A DNA stretch of 24,985 nucleotides, taken from the IMG/VR virus record IMGVR_UViG_3300027754_000412, positions 1-24,985 of that record; one strand, written 5' to 3'. The notes beneath the pieces are model-generated. The model did no database searches. It was not told the origin of the DNA and saw only the letters and a list, made by a program, of their open reading frames with translations. The stretch is from a virus. This document shows, in pieces, positions 16,261-24,985 of the stretch. Both the position numbers and the translations under genes were made by a program. The first letter of the stretch is position 1. Each line of letters begins with the position of its first letter.

Positions 16261-18123
16261 CTAAATTACTCTGATTTTGTTTTGCTCAGCGAAGGCTTCT
16301 TCTAAGTTAATCACTGTTCTTTTGCCTAGCTCGTGGCGAGATAGGAAAGGGTTTTTCATATGGTGAGTTGCATACTGTCCGTAGTTGAGCATCTCACGTG
16401 CTCTAATCTCACAGAACCACAGAGCCATCACCATATCGGTCTTACCCTTAGTTGTTGGAGTCCAGGTAATTAACTGCTCAATCAGAGCCTTGATGTTCTC
16501 GGTCTGATCTGATGGCAGATGTATTAAGTTATCTCGATGGTGCTTACCATCAAATTGCTTAGTACCAAAGAGGGTAGCCATAGATGCCACACCGAAACCG
16601 GCATCCCATTTATTAGAGCCGGTATGGTGTTCCTTGAATGCAACACCTCGTGAGGCTAGGTGCATACGGATGCCTTCGTCCTGCGTTAAGAAGGACTGGA
16701 AGGCGTTCTTTTCGATGATCCACTCTGAGGGTGAGTAGAGCGCTGTCCAATCAAAAATAAGATTACGGATATCGGCTGGAGACGGACGGCTAATCTTGAT
16801 AGCATCTACTATGTACCTCTTGCTCGTTGACCTATCAATGGCGTAGCAGATAGCTGCAGTATCACCAATCATCGCAGGGTCAAGGCCGCAGATGTAGGTA
16901 AAGCCGTTTAAGTCTCTAGGATGTCCTGGGTGGCCTGCAGTTAAGTTGCCAGCCTTACGCATTCCATCAATAGAGCCTTTTACACATACAGGGTCAAAGG
17001 CAGCGTTTTCAGATACGTCCTGTTGCTGGTAGACCAAAGCCCACGTACTAGCATCCATCGCTTGACGTTCGTTGTACAAGTTACGACCAGACCAACGAGG
17101 GTATAGGCCGTCCTCGTTCTTATCAGATTCTTCTTGTCCATCAAAGGGCGCATCAGAGGCGGGCCATAAAGTAACCCACTTGTCTGGGTCTTCATCTACC
17201 TCAAGAAGGGCTGGCATAGCCAAATACTTCCAAGGGACAAGACCGCCTGGGTATCTATCTTCTGAGCGTAGCTCGCGGTATAGATCAACAGAGGCTACTC
17301 GTGTACCAATAATAATCAGTTTGCCGGTAGGGTTAAGACGGGAGCGCACGTCTTGGGTCAGCCAACGGATCTGCTTCTCAAACTCATTAGCGTTCTTTAA
17401 GGTAACAGCGTCATCAACAATAATCATATCGGCACGCTTGCCGTAAATCTGACCGCCGATACCGACGGCCTCAATGTTCGGATCCTTTTCAGATGACTCA
17501 CGGAGTTCATCACCAAAGGTAACGCGGGTGGCCTGCCACGAAGCAGACTTAGAATTGAAGCCGACACCGGCGGCATAGGCCGTTTGCAGCTCTTGGTACA
17601 TTGGATGGGTCAGACGCTGTTTGATAGCGTAGAGGAAGTCTGCTGCTAACTGCTGTGTCTGTGAGACTATCAGTACTCGAAAGTTAGGATTCCTACATAC
17701 CTGCCAGGTTACGTAGTCAACGGTAATCGTAATTGACTTGGCGTGGTTTGGCGGAATATTTATCAGGACGCGGTTTGCGGCTAACCCTGGCTCAAATTTC
17801 ATACTGGGGTGTAGCCACCCAGGATCTCTGCCTTCAATGACATCTACTAAGTTCTGCTGATGTGGGAAGGTCTTAGAGTGTAGGAACTTCTGGCGAAAGT
17901 CTGCAAAGGATATGTCGTGGACGTCGCCATCCTGGAAGTTCTTATCCTTGAGACCAAGGCGGGTACGATCTACCTTATCTGCAAATATCTTATCTGTACG
18001 GCGGTAGTACTCATAGGTCTTAATGGACTTACCAGCGCTGCCACAGGCGGCGTCAATAGTCATACCTTCTGCTACACAGCCAAGGATAATACGCTTGGCA
18101 ATATCTGCTGAATTATCAGCCAC
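16261..18123 (-). CDS. terL: Terminase large subunit (TerL)
   Basis: 620 residues, GTG 18123 with TAGGAGA 5-6 nt ahead. The ATPase domain has a Walker A-like INIPPNHAKSITITV (residues about 121-135), a variant of the usual GxxxxGK with HAKS. Walker B is ADMIIVDDAV (about 231-240), ending in DD rather than DE. IIIGTRVASVDLYREL (about 270-286) follows. The nuclease half has CGLDPAM (D415), WIIEKNAF (E471) and KTDMVMALWF (D563), matching the acidic triad of the RNase H-like headful or cohesive-end nuclease. An N-terminal helix-turn-helix-like stretch is seen at residues about 20-50 (MTIDAACGSAGKSIKTYEYY). TerL drives DNA packaging at the portal. First gene of the structural operon. Confidence 0.93.
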   Translation of the reverse strand: MADNSADIAKRIILGCVAEGMTIDAACGSAGKSIKTYEYYRRTDKIFADKVDRTRLGLKDKNFQDGDVHDISFADFRQKFLHSKTFPHQQNLVDVIEGRDPGWLHPSMKFEPGLAANRVLINIPPNHAKSITITVDYVTWQVCRNPNFRVLIVSQTQQLAADFLYAIKQRLTHPMYQELQTAYAAGVGFNSKSASWQATRVTFGDELRESSEKDPNIEAVGIGGQIYGKRADMIIVDDAVTLKNANEFEKQIRWLTQDVRSRLNPTGKLIIIGTRVASVDLYRELRSEDRYPGGLVPWKYLAMPALLEVDEDPDKWVTLWPASDAPFDGQEESDKNEDGLYPRWSGRNLYNERQAMDASTWALVYQQQDVSENAAFDPVCVKGSIDGMRKAGNLTAGHPGHPRDLNGFTYICGLDPAMIGDTAAICYAIDRSTSKRYIVDAIKISRPSPADIRNLIFDWTALYSPSEWIIEKNAFQSFLTQDEGIRMHLASRGVAFKEHHTGSNKWDAGFGVASMATLFGTKQFDGKHHRDNLIHLPSDQTENIKALIEQLITWTPTTKGKTDMVMALWFCEIRAREMLNYGQYATHHMKNPFLSRHELGKRTVINLEEAFAEQNKIRVI

Positions 18124-18448: not shown

Positions 18449-18464
18449 TGTGATGTTAGTCACA
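18449..18464. promoter_or_regulatory. CRP/GlxR-type binding site
   Basis: TGTGA (18449-18453), six bases TGTTAG, then TCACA (18460-18464). This is an exact match to the TGTGA-N6-TCACA consensus of the CRP family, which includes GlxR and Crp of actinobacteria. A half-site TGTTAGTCAC is repeated at 18364-18373. The random expectation of a perfect match in a window of this length is about 0.02. A host cAMP-responsive regulator or a phage analogue may act here; inferred. Confidence 0.5.
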
Positions 18465-18600
18465 GTAGATATAACTGCAGGTCAGGCGCCAGATCAGCTT
18501 TCACTTTAGCAAATATTTTTTGTTGGGGAGTACAGGGACCGCCCGCGCAGAATTAAGCAACACGGGGTGCGTGTCTGGCGGTTAGACGGTGCAGAACAGG

Positions 18601-18643
18601 GCAGACGGTAGACATAGCTGGCGGTAATGTCTAAGCGGTCTGC
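18601..18643. promoter_or_regulatory. Inverted repeat 1: TAGACAT-N11-ATGTCTA, extended
   Basis: TAGACAT (18609-18615) and ATGTCTA (18627-18633) pair perfectly around 11 nt. Outside these, GCAGAC (18601-18606) pairs with GTCTGC (18638-18643). The inner arms and the spacer length are the same as in the repeat at 18871. Either a repeated operator or a structured leader. GTCTGC here can alternatively pair with GCAGACC at 18673. Confidence 0.55.
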
Positions 18644-18679
18644 TAAATCTTGCGGGGCTAACTACCTATCGGGCAGACC
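18637..18679. other. Alternative stem, diverged relative of the early two-hairpin element
   Basis: GGTCTGC (18637-18643) and GCAGACC (18673-18679) match the second stem of the two-hairpin element of the early operon. Between them lie TTGCGGGG and CTAACTACCTATCGGG, a loosened version of the repeat's loop. GGTCTGC is shared with the previous inverted repeat, so the two folds are mutually exclusive. Confidence 0.4.
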
Positions 18680-18870
18680 TAACCGCTAACCCCTAACCGC
18701 TTAACTATTGCCAGCGCACCAGCACCAGCGCACCAGCTAGACCGATAGCCCTACCGATAACCGCTAATCTCCCGCGATCTATCACCTAATGAGCTAACCG
18801 ACTAGACCTACCGCGCCAGCTAATCGCCAGCGATAGCCCTAGACCTAATCGCCTAGCCTTAGCCCTAACG

Positions 18871-18901
18871 CCTTAGACATAATCGCGCCTAATGTCTAAG
18901 G
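18871..18901. promoter_or_regulatory. Inverted repeat 2: perfect 10-bp operator-like palindrome
   Basis: CCTTAGACAT (18871-18880) and ATGTCTAAGG (18892-18901) pair perfectly around 11 nt. It ends 10 bases before the -35 of the putative early promoter, so a protein bound here could activate or block it. The core TAGACAT arms and the 11-nt spacing are identical to those at 18609-18633. Confidence 0.55.
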
Positions 18902-18911
18902 TCTAACCAGC

Positions 18912-18939
18912 TCGACACGGTAGAAAATAGTTATAAAAT
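18912..18939 (+). promoter_or_regulatory. Early promoter, sigma-70 type
   Basis: -35 TCGACA (18912-18917, 5 of 6 to TTGACA), 16-nt spacer, -10 TAAAAT (18934-18939, 5 of 6 to TATAAT). Transcription would start near 18946 and give a leader of about 75 nt that includes a CTAGGG (18952-18957) and CCCTAG (18976-18981) pairing. It lies next to the second TAGACAT palindrome. Best candidate for driving the plus-strand operon. Confidence 0.55.
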
Positions 18940-19021: not shown

Positions 19022-19534
19022 ATGACTACAGCTACAGCAATTAACCTAGAAGATATGACTACAGGCGAGGCTAAATTAACCTTAGATAAGGTTATTAAGC
19101 AGATAGCAGATCAAGAAAATAAAGAGTTAGTAATCGCATATGATGATCTAGTAATAATCGCCTATGCGTTAGAAAATAACCTACAACTACGCGATTACCT
19201 AATGGGCTTAACACGAGACGGGCTAAGCGTTGAAAGTGTTGCGGGTATTTTAACGGTAATGCTAGACCTATTTAAGAGTGCTTATAGATCTACTTACACT
19301 ATCGAGACCGTGCTAGCTAGTTATATGTACCGCCTAGGCGATAGCGCGGGCGCGCTCGTAATGCTCGCTAACGGTATCTCCCGCGACTACTCACTAGCTA
19401 AGCTACTACTACGCGTATTTGATCAAGGCTTAGCGCCCGATAATTTTGCAATTATGGCGCAAGAATTGCACGGTAAAGTAGTAGAAGAATTGACACGCAC
19501 GCAAGAATTGCCAGCTAATGAGGCTAATCGCTAA
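19022..19534 (+). CDS. DUF4192-like protein
   Basis: 170 residues, ATG 19022 with GAGGGA ahead. The C-terminal part (TVLASYMYRLGDSAGALVML and SLAKLLLRVFDQGLAPDNF) follows the pattern seen near the end of DUF4192 proteins of actinobacteria: a helix ending in GD, a stretch of small residues, then SLA-L-L--- followed by P. The function of DUF4192 is unknown. First gene of the early operon. It uses CTA for Leu and is rich in CTAG. Confidence in the gene is high; family is moderate. Confidence 0.75.
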   Translation: MTTATAINLEDMTTGEAKLTLDKVIKQIADQENKELVIAYDDLVIIAYALENNLQLRDYLMGLTRDGLSVESVAGILTVMLDLFKSAYRSTYTIETVLASYMYRLGDSAGALVMLANGISRDYSLAKLLLRVFDQGLAPDNFAIMAQELHGKVVEELTRTQELPANEANR

Positions 19535-19666: not shown

Positions 19667-19726
19667 TAGTGGCGTACCGTGGCGCTAGGGGTAATTCCCT
19701 AGCGTTGCGGTCTGCAACTAGGCAGA
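19667..19726 (+). repeat. Two-hairpin RNA element, copy 1
   Basis: Begins TAGTGGCGTACCGT at 19667, next to the stop of the membrane protein. Hairpin A: CGCTAGGG (19683-19690) with CCCTAGCG (19697-19704), 8 bp. Hairpin B: TCTGC (19711-19715) with GCAGA (19722-19726). Short linker GTTGCGG-type. Shares the 5' sequence GCGTACCGT and hairpin B with copies 2 and 3. Hairpin B loop lacks the CCTA/TAGG extension that the others have. Confidence 0.75.
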
Positions 19727-19746
19727 ATAGAAGAGAGGCTAAGAAA

Positions 19747-20364
19747 ATGGACACTATGAAAGATATCGAGCTAGACACGATAACCGTTAGAAAACTAGAC
19801 ACGATAACCGTTAAGGCTAGCGAGCTTAGCGATCTATTAACGGGCGCGAGCGTTGCAATGGATAAGGGTAAAAATGCGCTAAGCGCACTAGGTAGCGTAT
19901 ACCTAAGCGCTACGGGCGATAGCTACCTAGTCGCTAAGGCTAGCGATAGATACCGCCTAATCGAGGGTAAAATCGAGCTAAACGCGGGAGAATTGCAAGA
20001 GTGCCAGCTACGCGCTAATGATGTTAAGAATATCCTCGCAACGATAAAGGCTAATAAGGTAGCTGGCGAGATCACTTTAACCCGCGCTGGCGATACGCTA
20101 AGCGTTGCGGTAGGGGGCAATAGCCTCACTATCGCGCTAGGGGGCGATAAATTCCCGCCATATGCGCACCTATTCGAGCTTGAGCCTAAGCCTATAGATA
20201 AGATTATGTTAAACCCTACTTACCTAGCCTCATTCGATAAAGTGCCAGCTAGTAACGAGGGTAATACCTTTACATTTTACGGGGAGGCTAAGCCTGTAGG
20301 GGTTACGATTAACCATAACCGCATAAGCTGGCGGGCGTTGCTTATGCCTATGAAGATTAAATAG
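19747..20364 (+). CDS. DnaN-like sliding clamp, short form
   Basis: 205 residues from ATG 19747, chosen because it is preceded by AGAGAGGCT and the copy 1 hairpins lie upstream; an earlier GTG at 19669 falls inside the repeat element. The pattern fits beta clamps: GSVYLSATGDSYLVAKASDRYRL (about residues 55-75) as in the clamp's ATDGYRL-type strand, the GDKFPPYAHLFE segment, then KPVGVTI and ISWRALLMPMK at the end as in the terminal VMPMR region of DnaN. Bacterial clamps have about 370 residues in three domains; this has room for about two. It would tether a DNA polymerase to the template. Residues about 9-23 hold a tandem LDTITV repeat. Confidence 0.78.
   Translation: MDTMKDIELDTITVRKLDTITVKASELSDLLTGASVAMDKGKNALSALGSVYLSATGDSYLVAKASDRYRLIEGKIELNAGELQECQLRANDVKNILATIKANKVAGEITLTRAGDTLSVAVGGNSLTIALGGDKFPPYAHLFELEPKPIDKIMLNPTYLASFDKVPASNEGNTFTFYGEAKPVGVTINHNRISWRALLMPMKIK
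19771..19813 (+). repeat. Tandem duplication in the clamp gene
   Basis: CTAGACACGATAACCGTTA occurs at 19771-19789 and again at 19795-19813, period 24 nt (8 codons), encoding LDTITVRK then LDTITVKA. A short recent duplication that stays in frame. Confidence 0.85.
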
Positions 20365-23020: not shown

Positions 23021-23255
23021 GATCATCAGCTTTCACCCACCTAAATCTGAGCTGATCCTGCTCTATGAGGTAGTGGGGGAGGACGGCAAGGCTGAGTGGG
23101 GTGGCAATAGTGAGCGAGAAGCTCTTGCGTGGATAGCTAAATCCCGTACCGCTACCCGTATACTGGTATCAGGGTGGGAGAGCGACGAAGAAGATGCTCA
23201 ACTAATAGGCCAACCCTTAGACATAACTACGATAGTGAGAGAGGCAAGTAGATGA
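23010..23255 (+). CDS. Small early protein (81 aa)
   Basis: 81 residues from ATG 23010, which overlaps the previous gene by 11 nt and gives a better protein start than a far upstream alternative at 22944. A beta-rich segment (KSELILLYEVVGEDGKAEWG) is followed by REALAWIAKSRTATRILVSG. No family recognised. Confidence 0.58.
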   Translation: MDAEIISFHPPKSELILLYEVVGEDGKAEWGGNSEREALAWIAKSRTATRILVSGWESDEEDAQLIGQPLDITTIVREASR

Positions 23256-23536
23256 GCGAGAGAAGGTTAGTTGCTGCTGCAAATATGGCAGTACGCCAGC
23301 GTAACTATAGACGAGCGCGAGATCGTGCTTTAGTCAAACTAGCACAACTATATCCGGACGCTTACAAAGAGCTGCTGGAGAGGGAGAAGGCGAATGACGA
23401 AGCGCAAGGTCGTAAGTGGCTTGATATTGACGGTAATACTTCTAATGTGGGTCTACGACCCATTACCACCGTTGAGCACAGCAACGAAGCCAGTAATAAT
23501 AGAGCGTACAAAAGCAACGATGGAGGAGAAGTATGA
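23252..23536 (+). CDS. Small helical protein (94 aa)
   Basis: 94 residues, ATGA overlap. The N-terminal two-thirds has RNYRRARDRALVKLAQLYPD followed by EREKANDEAQGRKWLDIDG, a pattern of helices I have seen in small proteins of actinophages. The last third (after about residue 60) is low in features and lies in the part that overlaps the lysozyme gene. The N-terminal pattern makes the gene plausible. Confidence 0.65.
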   Translation: MSERRLVAAANMAVRQRNYRRARDRALVKLAQLYPDAYKELLEREKANDEAQGRKWLDIDGNTSNVGLRPITTVEHSNEASNNRAYKSNDGGEV

Positions 23537-24077: not shown

Positions 24078-24457
24078 AAGCGAACCGCCTCTTCTGTATC
24101 TAGATAACCAACTACCTTCTCAACCTTATCTACATTCTCAAACTCTGTAGTCGCTGGCATCTGATGTGTATGCCACTGCGGTTCATCCATATCTGTAAGA
24201 TCAAAGGAGTAGATACCAAGTGGTGTGCTGTTGATATAGAAGGGCAGTAGTTCACGATGGTATGCCTGCTCCATCAGCTTGCGGTACTTCATCTGCTCTA
24301 TAAGTAGCGTAGAATAATGGGTTTGGCGACACTTGAGTTCAATGAAGTGACCAGCCTTCTGTGAGGTGCAGTCGAAGGCATCATAGATTCCTGGTGCTCT
24401 CTCTAAATCTGGGTAGAGATTGAACTTAAGAAAGTCAAAAAGGATTAACTCGTTCAT
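24074..24457 (-). CDS. PD-(D/E)XK nuclease-like protein
   Basis: 127 residues from ATG 24457, which overlaps the upstream stop (ATGA). Residues 20-44 hold YDAFDC (D29) followed by FIELKCR (E40, K42): D-x10-E-x-K as in the PD-(D/E)XK nuclease core. QMKYRKLMEQAYHRELLPFY follows as the expected helix and strand. Sequence fits a phage recombination, DNA-repair or host-DNA degrading nuclease; exact subfamily unknown. The next gene down is the FmdB-like ribbon. Confidence 0.72.
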   Translation of the reverse strand: MNELILFDFLKFNLYPDLERAPGIYDAFDCTSQKAGHFIELKCRQTHYSTLLIEQMKYRKLMEQAYHRELLPFYINSTPLGIYSFDLTDMDEPQWHTHQMPATTEFENVDKVEKVVGYLDTEEAVRL

Positions 24458-24985
24458 CTCCAAGGACTTTGCCCACCTAACTTATCCTGCAGGGCGCGGA
24501 GCGCAAAGGTAATCCTGCGATCTGCTGTAGATACAGCACACTCTAGTAACTGTGCTACTTGTGCAAGTGTCATAGATTGGTGGTAACGCCAGACCAGTAT
24601 GCTCTGGTGTTCTACATCAAGTGCTGTGTAAGCCTTCTTAATATCAATCAGGATAGCAAGTAAGTTGCCACCTTCTGCTGGTGAGGAAGAACTCTTGGGT
24701 CTGCCATCACGGATCATCTCTTGTGCCTGCTCAAGGACTGTGCCATCTATCACCGATGCAATTACATAGGGCAGTAGCTGTGCTAGGTTGGCAGTCTCAT
24801 AGTAAGACTCATCAGAAATGTGATAGCCGGACCTGATTGACTTCTCCTTGCGAGCATACCTTTCAGCAGCTCGAAACATCTGCCAACCAACACGCTGTTC
24901 ATTGTGCTGACGCTGTTTAATCTCAGGCTCTGACAACTGCTCATTCAAATATGCAGCACGCGATAGCGCCCACTTGATGCACTCT
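24454..24985 (-). CDS. Sigma-region-4-like regulator, start beyond window
   Basis: Open from the right edge to a TGA at 24454; the frame continues through the last bases of the window without a stop, so the start is outside. The C-terminal section (about 24460-24620) has LDVEHQSILVWRYHQSMTLA followed by QVAQLLECAVSTADRRITFA, a typical sigma-70 region 4 helix-turn-helix (MTLAQVAQLLECAVSTADRR). Region 2 is not evident in what is visible. It could direct late transcription of the structural operon, which lacks a good -35. Family moderately sure. Confidence 0.72.
   Translation of the reverse strand, partial: ECIKWALSRAAYLNEQLSEPEIKQRQHNEQRVGWQMFRAAERYARKEKSIRSGYHISDESYYETANLAQLLPYVIASVIDGTVLEQAQEMIRDGRPKSSSSPAEGGNLLAILIDIKKAYTALDVEHQSILVWRYHQSMTLAQVAQLLECAVSTADRRITFALRALQDKLGGQSPWR

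Follow-up and report, generated by a model that had tools for sequence, protein, structure and literature searches.

DnaA-type origins, whether oriC-type or those of phages and plasmids, have an AT-rich unwinding element beside their DnaA boxes, and NikR, BirA and HrcA act at two-turn palindromic operators with short inverted half-sites. The locus analyzed here, a twin palindrome in a viral control region, has likenesses to both. Relatives of this virus carry tandem DnaA boxes and an AT-rich element in the slot occupied by one of the palindromes, but the window (the whole stretch of DNA analyzed, a virus record of 24,985 bases) has palindromes of another sequence and no exact DnaA box (TTATNCACA or TTGTCCACA) within 1300 bp upstream of terminase. 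Its half-sites are about two turns apart, as in the NikR, BirA and HrcA operators, but their sequence and spacer differ, and no NikR-, BirA- or HrcA-type protein was identified here.

In the Streptomyces podoviruses of the cluster BF type WRightOn, Immanuel3, Stella, Manuel and Abafar, GGACA/TGTCC words and a block similar to GTTGTTAA occupy the corresponding position upstream of terminase, which is 43% identical to that of the window, but the palindrome with its 13-base spacer (N13) was absent in all five phages inspected. Phages LanE43AprE7 and AprF5 (hereafter E7 and F5) have one Planktophila host strain (PMC10202952). Their terminases are about 46–48% identical to that of the window and they have core genes in common with it; E7 has a perfect palindrome, TAGACATAAGGCTTATGTATGTCTA, 459 bp upstream of its terminase and one further relaxed match (YRGACA-N13-TGTCYR) elsewhere in its genome, and no palindrome was found in the genome of F5, isolated on the host strain of E7. 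The main text of the paper on these two phages (PMC10202952) mentions no such site, and in the literature searched on origins, DnaA boxes, terminal repeats and control regions we found no description of the motif, nor of the origins and early switches of this freshwater phage group. As a kind of element, an operator-like site in the control region of a phage is familiar; what is new, to our knowledge, is that it occupies a slot common to DnaA boxes.

Both palindromes of the window stand in a non-coding intergenic stretch of 898 bp, the control region, which separates the leftward terminase gene from the rightward first early ORF. The features of this region and its flanks are:

16261–18123, minus strand: terminase large subunit (phrog_38, E = 6.8e-65).
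18449–18464, no strand assigned: CRP/GlxR-like box TGTGATGTTAGTCACA in the late leader.
18501–18518, minus strand: AT-rich conserved anchor AAATATTTGCTAAAGTGA, a possible unwinding element or leader.
18522–18571, minus strand: conserved block CACCCCGTGTTGCTTAATT..TGTACTCCCCAAC, a possible late promoter.
18609–18633, no strand assigned: site A, an exact TAGACAT-N11-ATGTCTA, the terminase-proximal copy.
18654–18663, minus strand: TA^GTTAGCCCC motif, a putative left genome end judged from the pile-up of contig starts in relatives.
18664–18870, minus strand: G-rich, strand-biased tract of low complexity that separates A from B.
18871–18901, no strand assigned: site B, TAGACAT-N11-ATGTCTA at 18874–18898 with extended 10-bp arms, the early-gene-proximal copy.
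18912–18939, plus strand: promoter-like TCGACA-N16-TAAAAT before the early genes (a consensus match, which does not imply function; similar words were seen by eye in relatives).
19022–19534, plus strand: first early ORF, 170 aa, with no family match and no association with the palindrome.
19669–20364, plus strand: sliding-clamp-like ORF (phrog_947, E = 3e-9).

The sliding-clamp-like ORF also matches phrog_12598 (E = 1.9e-10), a family named RusA-like, and a Pfam search with it returned no match. Among the core genes are a DnaB-type helicase and a split primase; no initiator or DNA polymerase was seen in the core gene clusters inspected. The GC skew, which is confounded by gene direction, was mixed and gave no clear origin signal; a tRNA search of the window found none. 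A sigma-factor region 4 protein (24454–24984) is kept in 18 of 18 records compared, and TGTGA-N6-TCACA (CRP/GlxR-like) boxes occur in the late leader of the window and of relatives, as far as the Streptomyces phages L209–L218.

The two copies claimed by an earlier note on this DNA, at 18609–18633 and 18874–18898, proved exact, as did the perfect 10-bp arms of the second (CCTTAGACAT/ATGTCTAAGG, 18871–18901) and the promoter-like -35 hexamer, TCGACA at 18912, which starts after 10 bases beyond the extended site B (13 beyond the 25-bp site). The words GGCAGAC (18600–18606), GGTCTGC (18637–18643) and GCAGACC (18673–18679), which the note had seen as possible pairing partners, are also present. Seven-base inverted repeats numbered nine in the 898-bp stretch against a shuffle mean of 1.67, and in none of 1500 shuffles did a pair of arm and spacer recur within it. 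No copies besides A and B were found in the window at up to two mismatches; at three mismatches there were two more matches, with 1.6 expected by chance at up to three.

The note had pointed to related phages as the place to look for the motif near the divergent region, and would have been refuted by its absence at the equivalent place; it does recur there, best described as TAGACA-N13-TGTCTA. This unit has six-base arms and half-sites 19 bp apart, or approximately two helical turns; relatives keep neither the seventh base of the arm nor the extension of site B to 10-bp arms. In what we call clade 1, the window together with the best 80 terminase relatives among the matches listed (86–99% identical), we counted 32 occurrences of the unit, with at most one mismatch, in the 72.8 kb upstream of terminase and two in the remaining 622.8 kb. 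Spacers of any other length between 3 and 25 occurred upstream 0–2 times each, except spacer 14 with eight cases, mostly from one clade with a different sequence. The GACA-N13-TGTC core was found 37 times upstream of terminase (35 distinct) and not once downstream in the same loci. Copies at position A start 93–137 bp before the AT-rich anchor, and copies at position B, seen in 16 sequences including the window, 257–380 bp before it. Both positions are filled in six sequences, the window, L142, L158, L166, L188 and L197, L158 being included at two mismatches and L166 with a spacer of 14 bases at its B position.

Other repeats were observed around position B. Where B is absent, another motif, which reads TGTCGATxxGTCGACAATT or closely resembles it, stands in that region in L123, L144, L154, L161, L176, L189, L193, E7 and F5 (L254, L255), followed in most carriers by a GTTGAAnnTTCAAC-like inverted repeat. 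Direct repeats of about 11 bp of the (G/A)TAACGATTA type lie near B in L142, L188, L190, L196 and L197. In L130, a contig of 40,683 bp, the late-leader block is inverted relative to terminase.

We also scanned viral contigs for the exact 14-base pattern with genes disregarded. Most of the 120 loci among the matches listed look like chance, given that 94 have no terminase belonging to this superfamily (short or incomplete contigs are numerous), and the scan by itself was not relied on. In the 26 contigs that encode one, the palindrome lay 395–881 bp upstream of terminase in 18. Six of the remaining eight form a third terminase group (L009, L021, L022, L094, L104 and L109) with the palindrome 2.6–3.2 kb upstream, probably a single event by descent, and two (L033 and L102, approximately 25% identity) have it at 1.57 kb; neither set was counted as support. 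In L109 the palindrome (1547–1571) lies inside a small ORF; the other five belong to the same third terminase clade.

The slot of site A was scored in the 65 clade-1 sequences having the anchor within four mismatches, since the other 16 of the 81 had too little upstream DNA or no recognizable anchor. We found DnaA boxes in 29 slots (28 alone and one with the palindrome), the palindrome alone in 18, and neither element in 18, made up of five with TAGAC direct repeats and 13 with none of these. A further slot, that of L169, also holds both elements if two mismatches are allowed. Tandem TTATCCACA boxes stand in the slot of relatives, often 12 bp apart and with an AT-rich element nearby, and across clade 1 there were 67 DnaA boxes in 73.9 kb upstream of terminase versus 10 in 366.8 kb downstream or elsewhere. 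Site B, with at most one mismatch, accompanies DnaA boxes in L170, L178, L190, L191, L195, L196 and L201. The TAGAC direct repeats, with a 13-bp period, were observed in L126, L137, L138, L145 and L146, where they stand instead of the palindrome or the DnaA boxes.

Mapped on the terminase tree, the slot changed state 22 times, 10 of these between palindrome and DnaA boxes. Their mutual exclusion in clade 1 gave a Fisher p of 2.5e-5 with relatedness ignored; on independent branches it never had the same direction and was not significant (median p 0.25). A general replacement of DnaA boxes by the palindrome fails in the E7 clade, where both coexist in one control region in L271, L298, L304, L322, L028, L041 and L087 (L028 and L322 being one contig). 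Across 80 E7-like loci, and allowing at most one mismatch, the N13 motif occurred 12 times upstream of terminase versus none elsewhere, and spacer 14 was about as common (nine upstream versus two elsewhere); DnaA boxes numbered 32 in 79.0 kb upstream versus 14 in 439.9 kb elsewhere. The two elements thus share a module, the replacement of one by the other being a tendency within clade 1 only.

Binding by one dimeric protein, as the note had proposed, is supported by the fixed N13, by the near absence of other spacers in the window's own clade, and by the equivalent place in relatives; the link to an origin gains indirect support from the DnaA boxes that relatives have in this slot. The sites have the hallmarks of an operator, that is, inverted half-sites at a fixed spacing, repeated near promoter-like sites, and the constancy of arms and spacing, together with changes that are uncompensated, points to a protein binding the DNA. 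With slightly better than even confidence, we read TAGACA-N13-TGTCTA as a dimer-binding control site in an origin-like module at the genome end; the comparisons show the sites, their constant spacing, their conserved position and a slot that DnaA boxes also use, and from these protein binding, the dimer, and the origin or promoter role are deduced. In this model a dimeric or tetrameric protein would bind the palindrome sequence-specifically, at B just upstream of the early promoter and at A approximately 115 bp from the AT-rich element, in the slot that has host-type DnaA boxes in relatives. Sites A and B, when bound, would most likely form a control or origin complex of the intergenic module, which would help replication and/or early transcription to begin. 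We consider a role in replication initiation about as probable as one in promoter control: the AT-rich element, the DnaA boxes close by and the genes for helicase and primase suggest an origin-like module, and the adjacency of B to the early promoter-like site suggests promoter control. The palindrome is not indispensable, given the 18 of 65 slots with neither element, the 22 changes of state, and F5 lacking the site on the same host.

The identity of the binding protein was sought among the early genes. Neither the first early ORF, the sliding clamp nor any other early cluster tracked the presence of the palindrome across the 37 loci compared (the lowest Fisher p, uncorrected, was 0.09), and when the genes found only in E7 were compared by eye with those found only in F5, no clear DNA-binding candidate emerged. 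An early protein of 94 aa (23252–23536), conserved and encoded by an ORF that overlaps the next gene, has no family match and is present in 28 other loci; it was rejected as the general binder because E7 and F5 have no credible match to it. Given that none of the early genes follows the palindrome and that E7 and F5 grow on one host, the protein that binds is probably either supplied by the host or part of the phage core set.

A purely transcriptional operator or activator, in which a regulator at A and B would control the divergent late and early promoters and have no role in replication, is possible but less probable. The position of B just upstream of the early promoter-like site, that of A upstream of the possible late promoter block, and the flanking of the divergent region by both sites in several relatives would all suit such a regulator, but the slot of A is common to DnaA boxes, no regulator gene tracks the sites, and the promoters are themselves only predicted. 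More tentatively still, the slot may be a cassette for initiation, exchangeable and located at the end of the genome, filled by host DnaA boxes, TAGACA-N13-TGTCTA palindromes or 13-bp TAGAC direct repeats.

The assignment of a genome end is based on where contigs begin. Thirty-two clade-1 loci begin within 900 bp upstream of terminase and the anchor is present in 18; 13 of those 18 start 129–162 bp before it, where about one was expected (P = 6e-11, on the assumption that loci are independent and starts uniform). By eye, six of the clade-1 contigs share one starting point within a GTCnGCCC-like motif; no such pile-up was seen in the E7 clade. These starts suggest a physical end there, in which case site A would lie within a terminal repeat; alternatively, a boundary between conserved and hypervariable sequence may have broken the assemblies. 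Terminal repeats of 253 and 265 bp have been published for cluster BF phages (PMC9753666 and PMC13097060). In four of the five Streptomyces BF-type phages inspected, the repeats measure 263–276 bp and lie just upstream of terminase, the record of Abafar giving 396; they hold TGTCC/GGACA words, and the conserved block at 18522–18571 resembles their right end, a homology judged by eye.

A packaging site, where terminase or a small terminase protein would bind the end-adjacent palindromes and direct the cutting of terminal repeats, could draw on both the BF-type repeats at the equivalent place and the contig starts (13 of the 32 short-upstream contigs, several exactly at the GTCnGCCC-like motif). 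We nevertheless regard it as improbable, because what fills the slot varies among phages whose terminases are identical or nearly so (L150/L153 versus L151/L152; E7 versus F5); further, no small terminase gene was identified, and the BF-type phages have scattered half-words without the N13 palindrome. An RNA hairpin or switch in leader transcripts, which the note had offered as an alternative, is very improbable even though both copies can fold, site B on the plus strand well (z -4.5) because its arms are perfect: for site A the predicted advantage over shuffles is only mild (z -2.2 and -1.7), the arms keep their bases and do not covary (the outer arm base is unpaired in 11 of 40 distinct sites, with no compensatory changes, which argues for a protein-binding DNA site instead), the loop is fixed at 13 but variable in sequence, the extra GCAGAC/GTCTGC pairing is visible by eye only in the window and partly in L144, and the window has no Rfam match up to E = 1.

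The virus belongs to a widespread freshwater group of phages whose relatives infect 'Ca. Planktophila'. That many of its relatives keep the twin palindrome, at its place and spacing, suggests that a paired protein docks there and aids early activity or copying. If the slot is indeed an exchangeable cassette, then close phage relatives, even two on one host, would start replication through different initiators. The occurrence of the site beside DnaA boxes, and in E7 but not F5 on one cultivated host, makes the start of replication in these phages directly testable.
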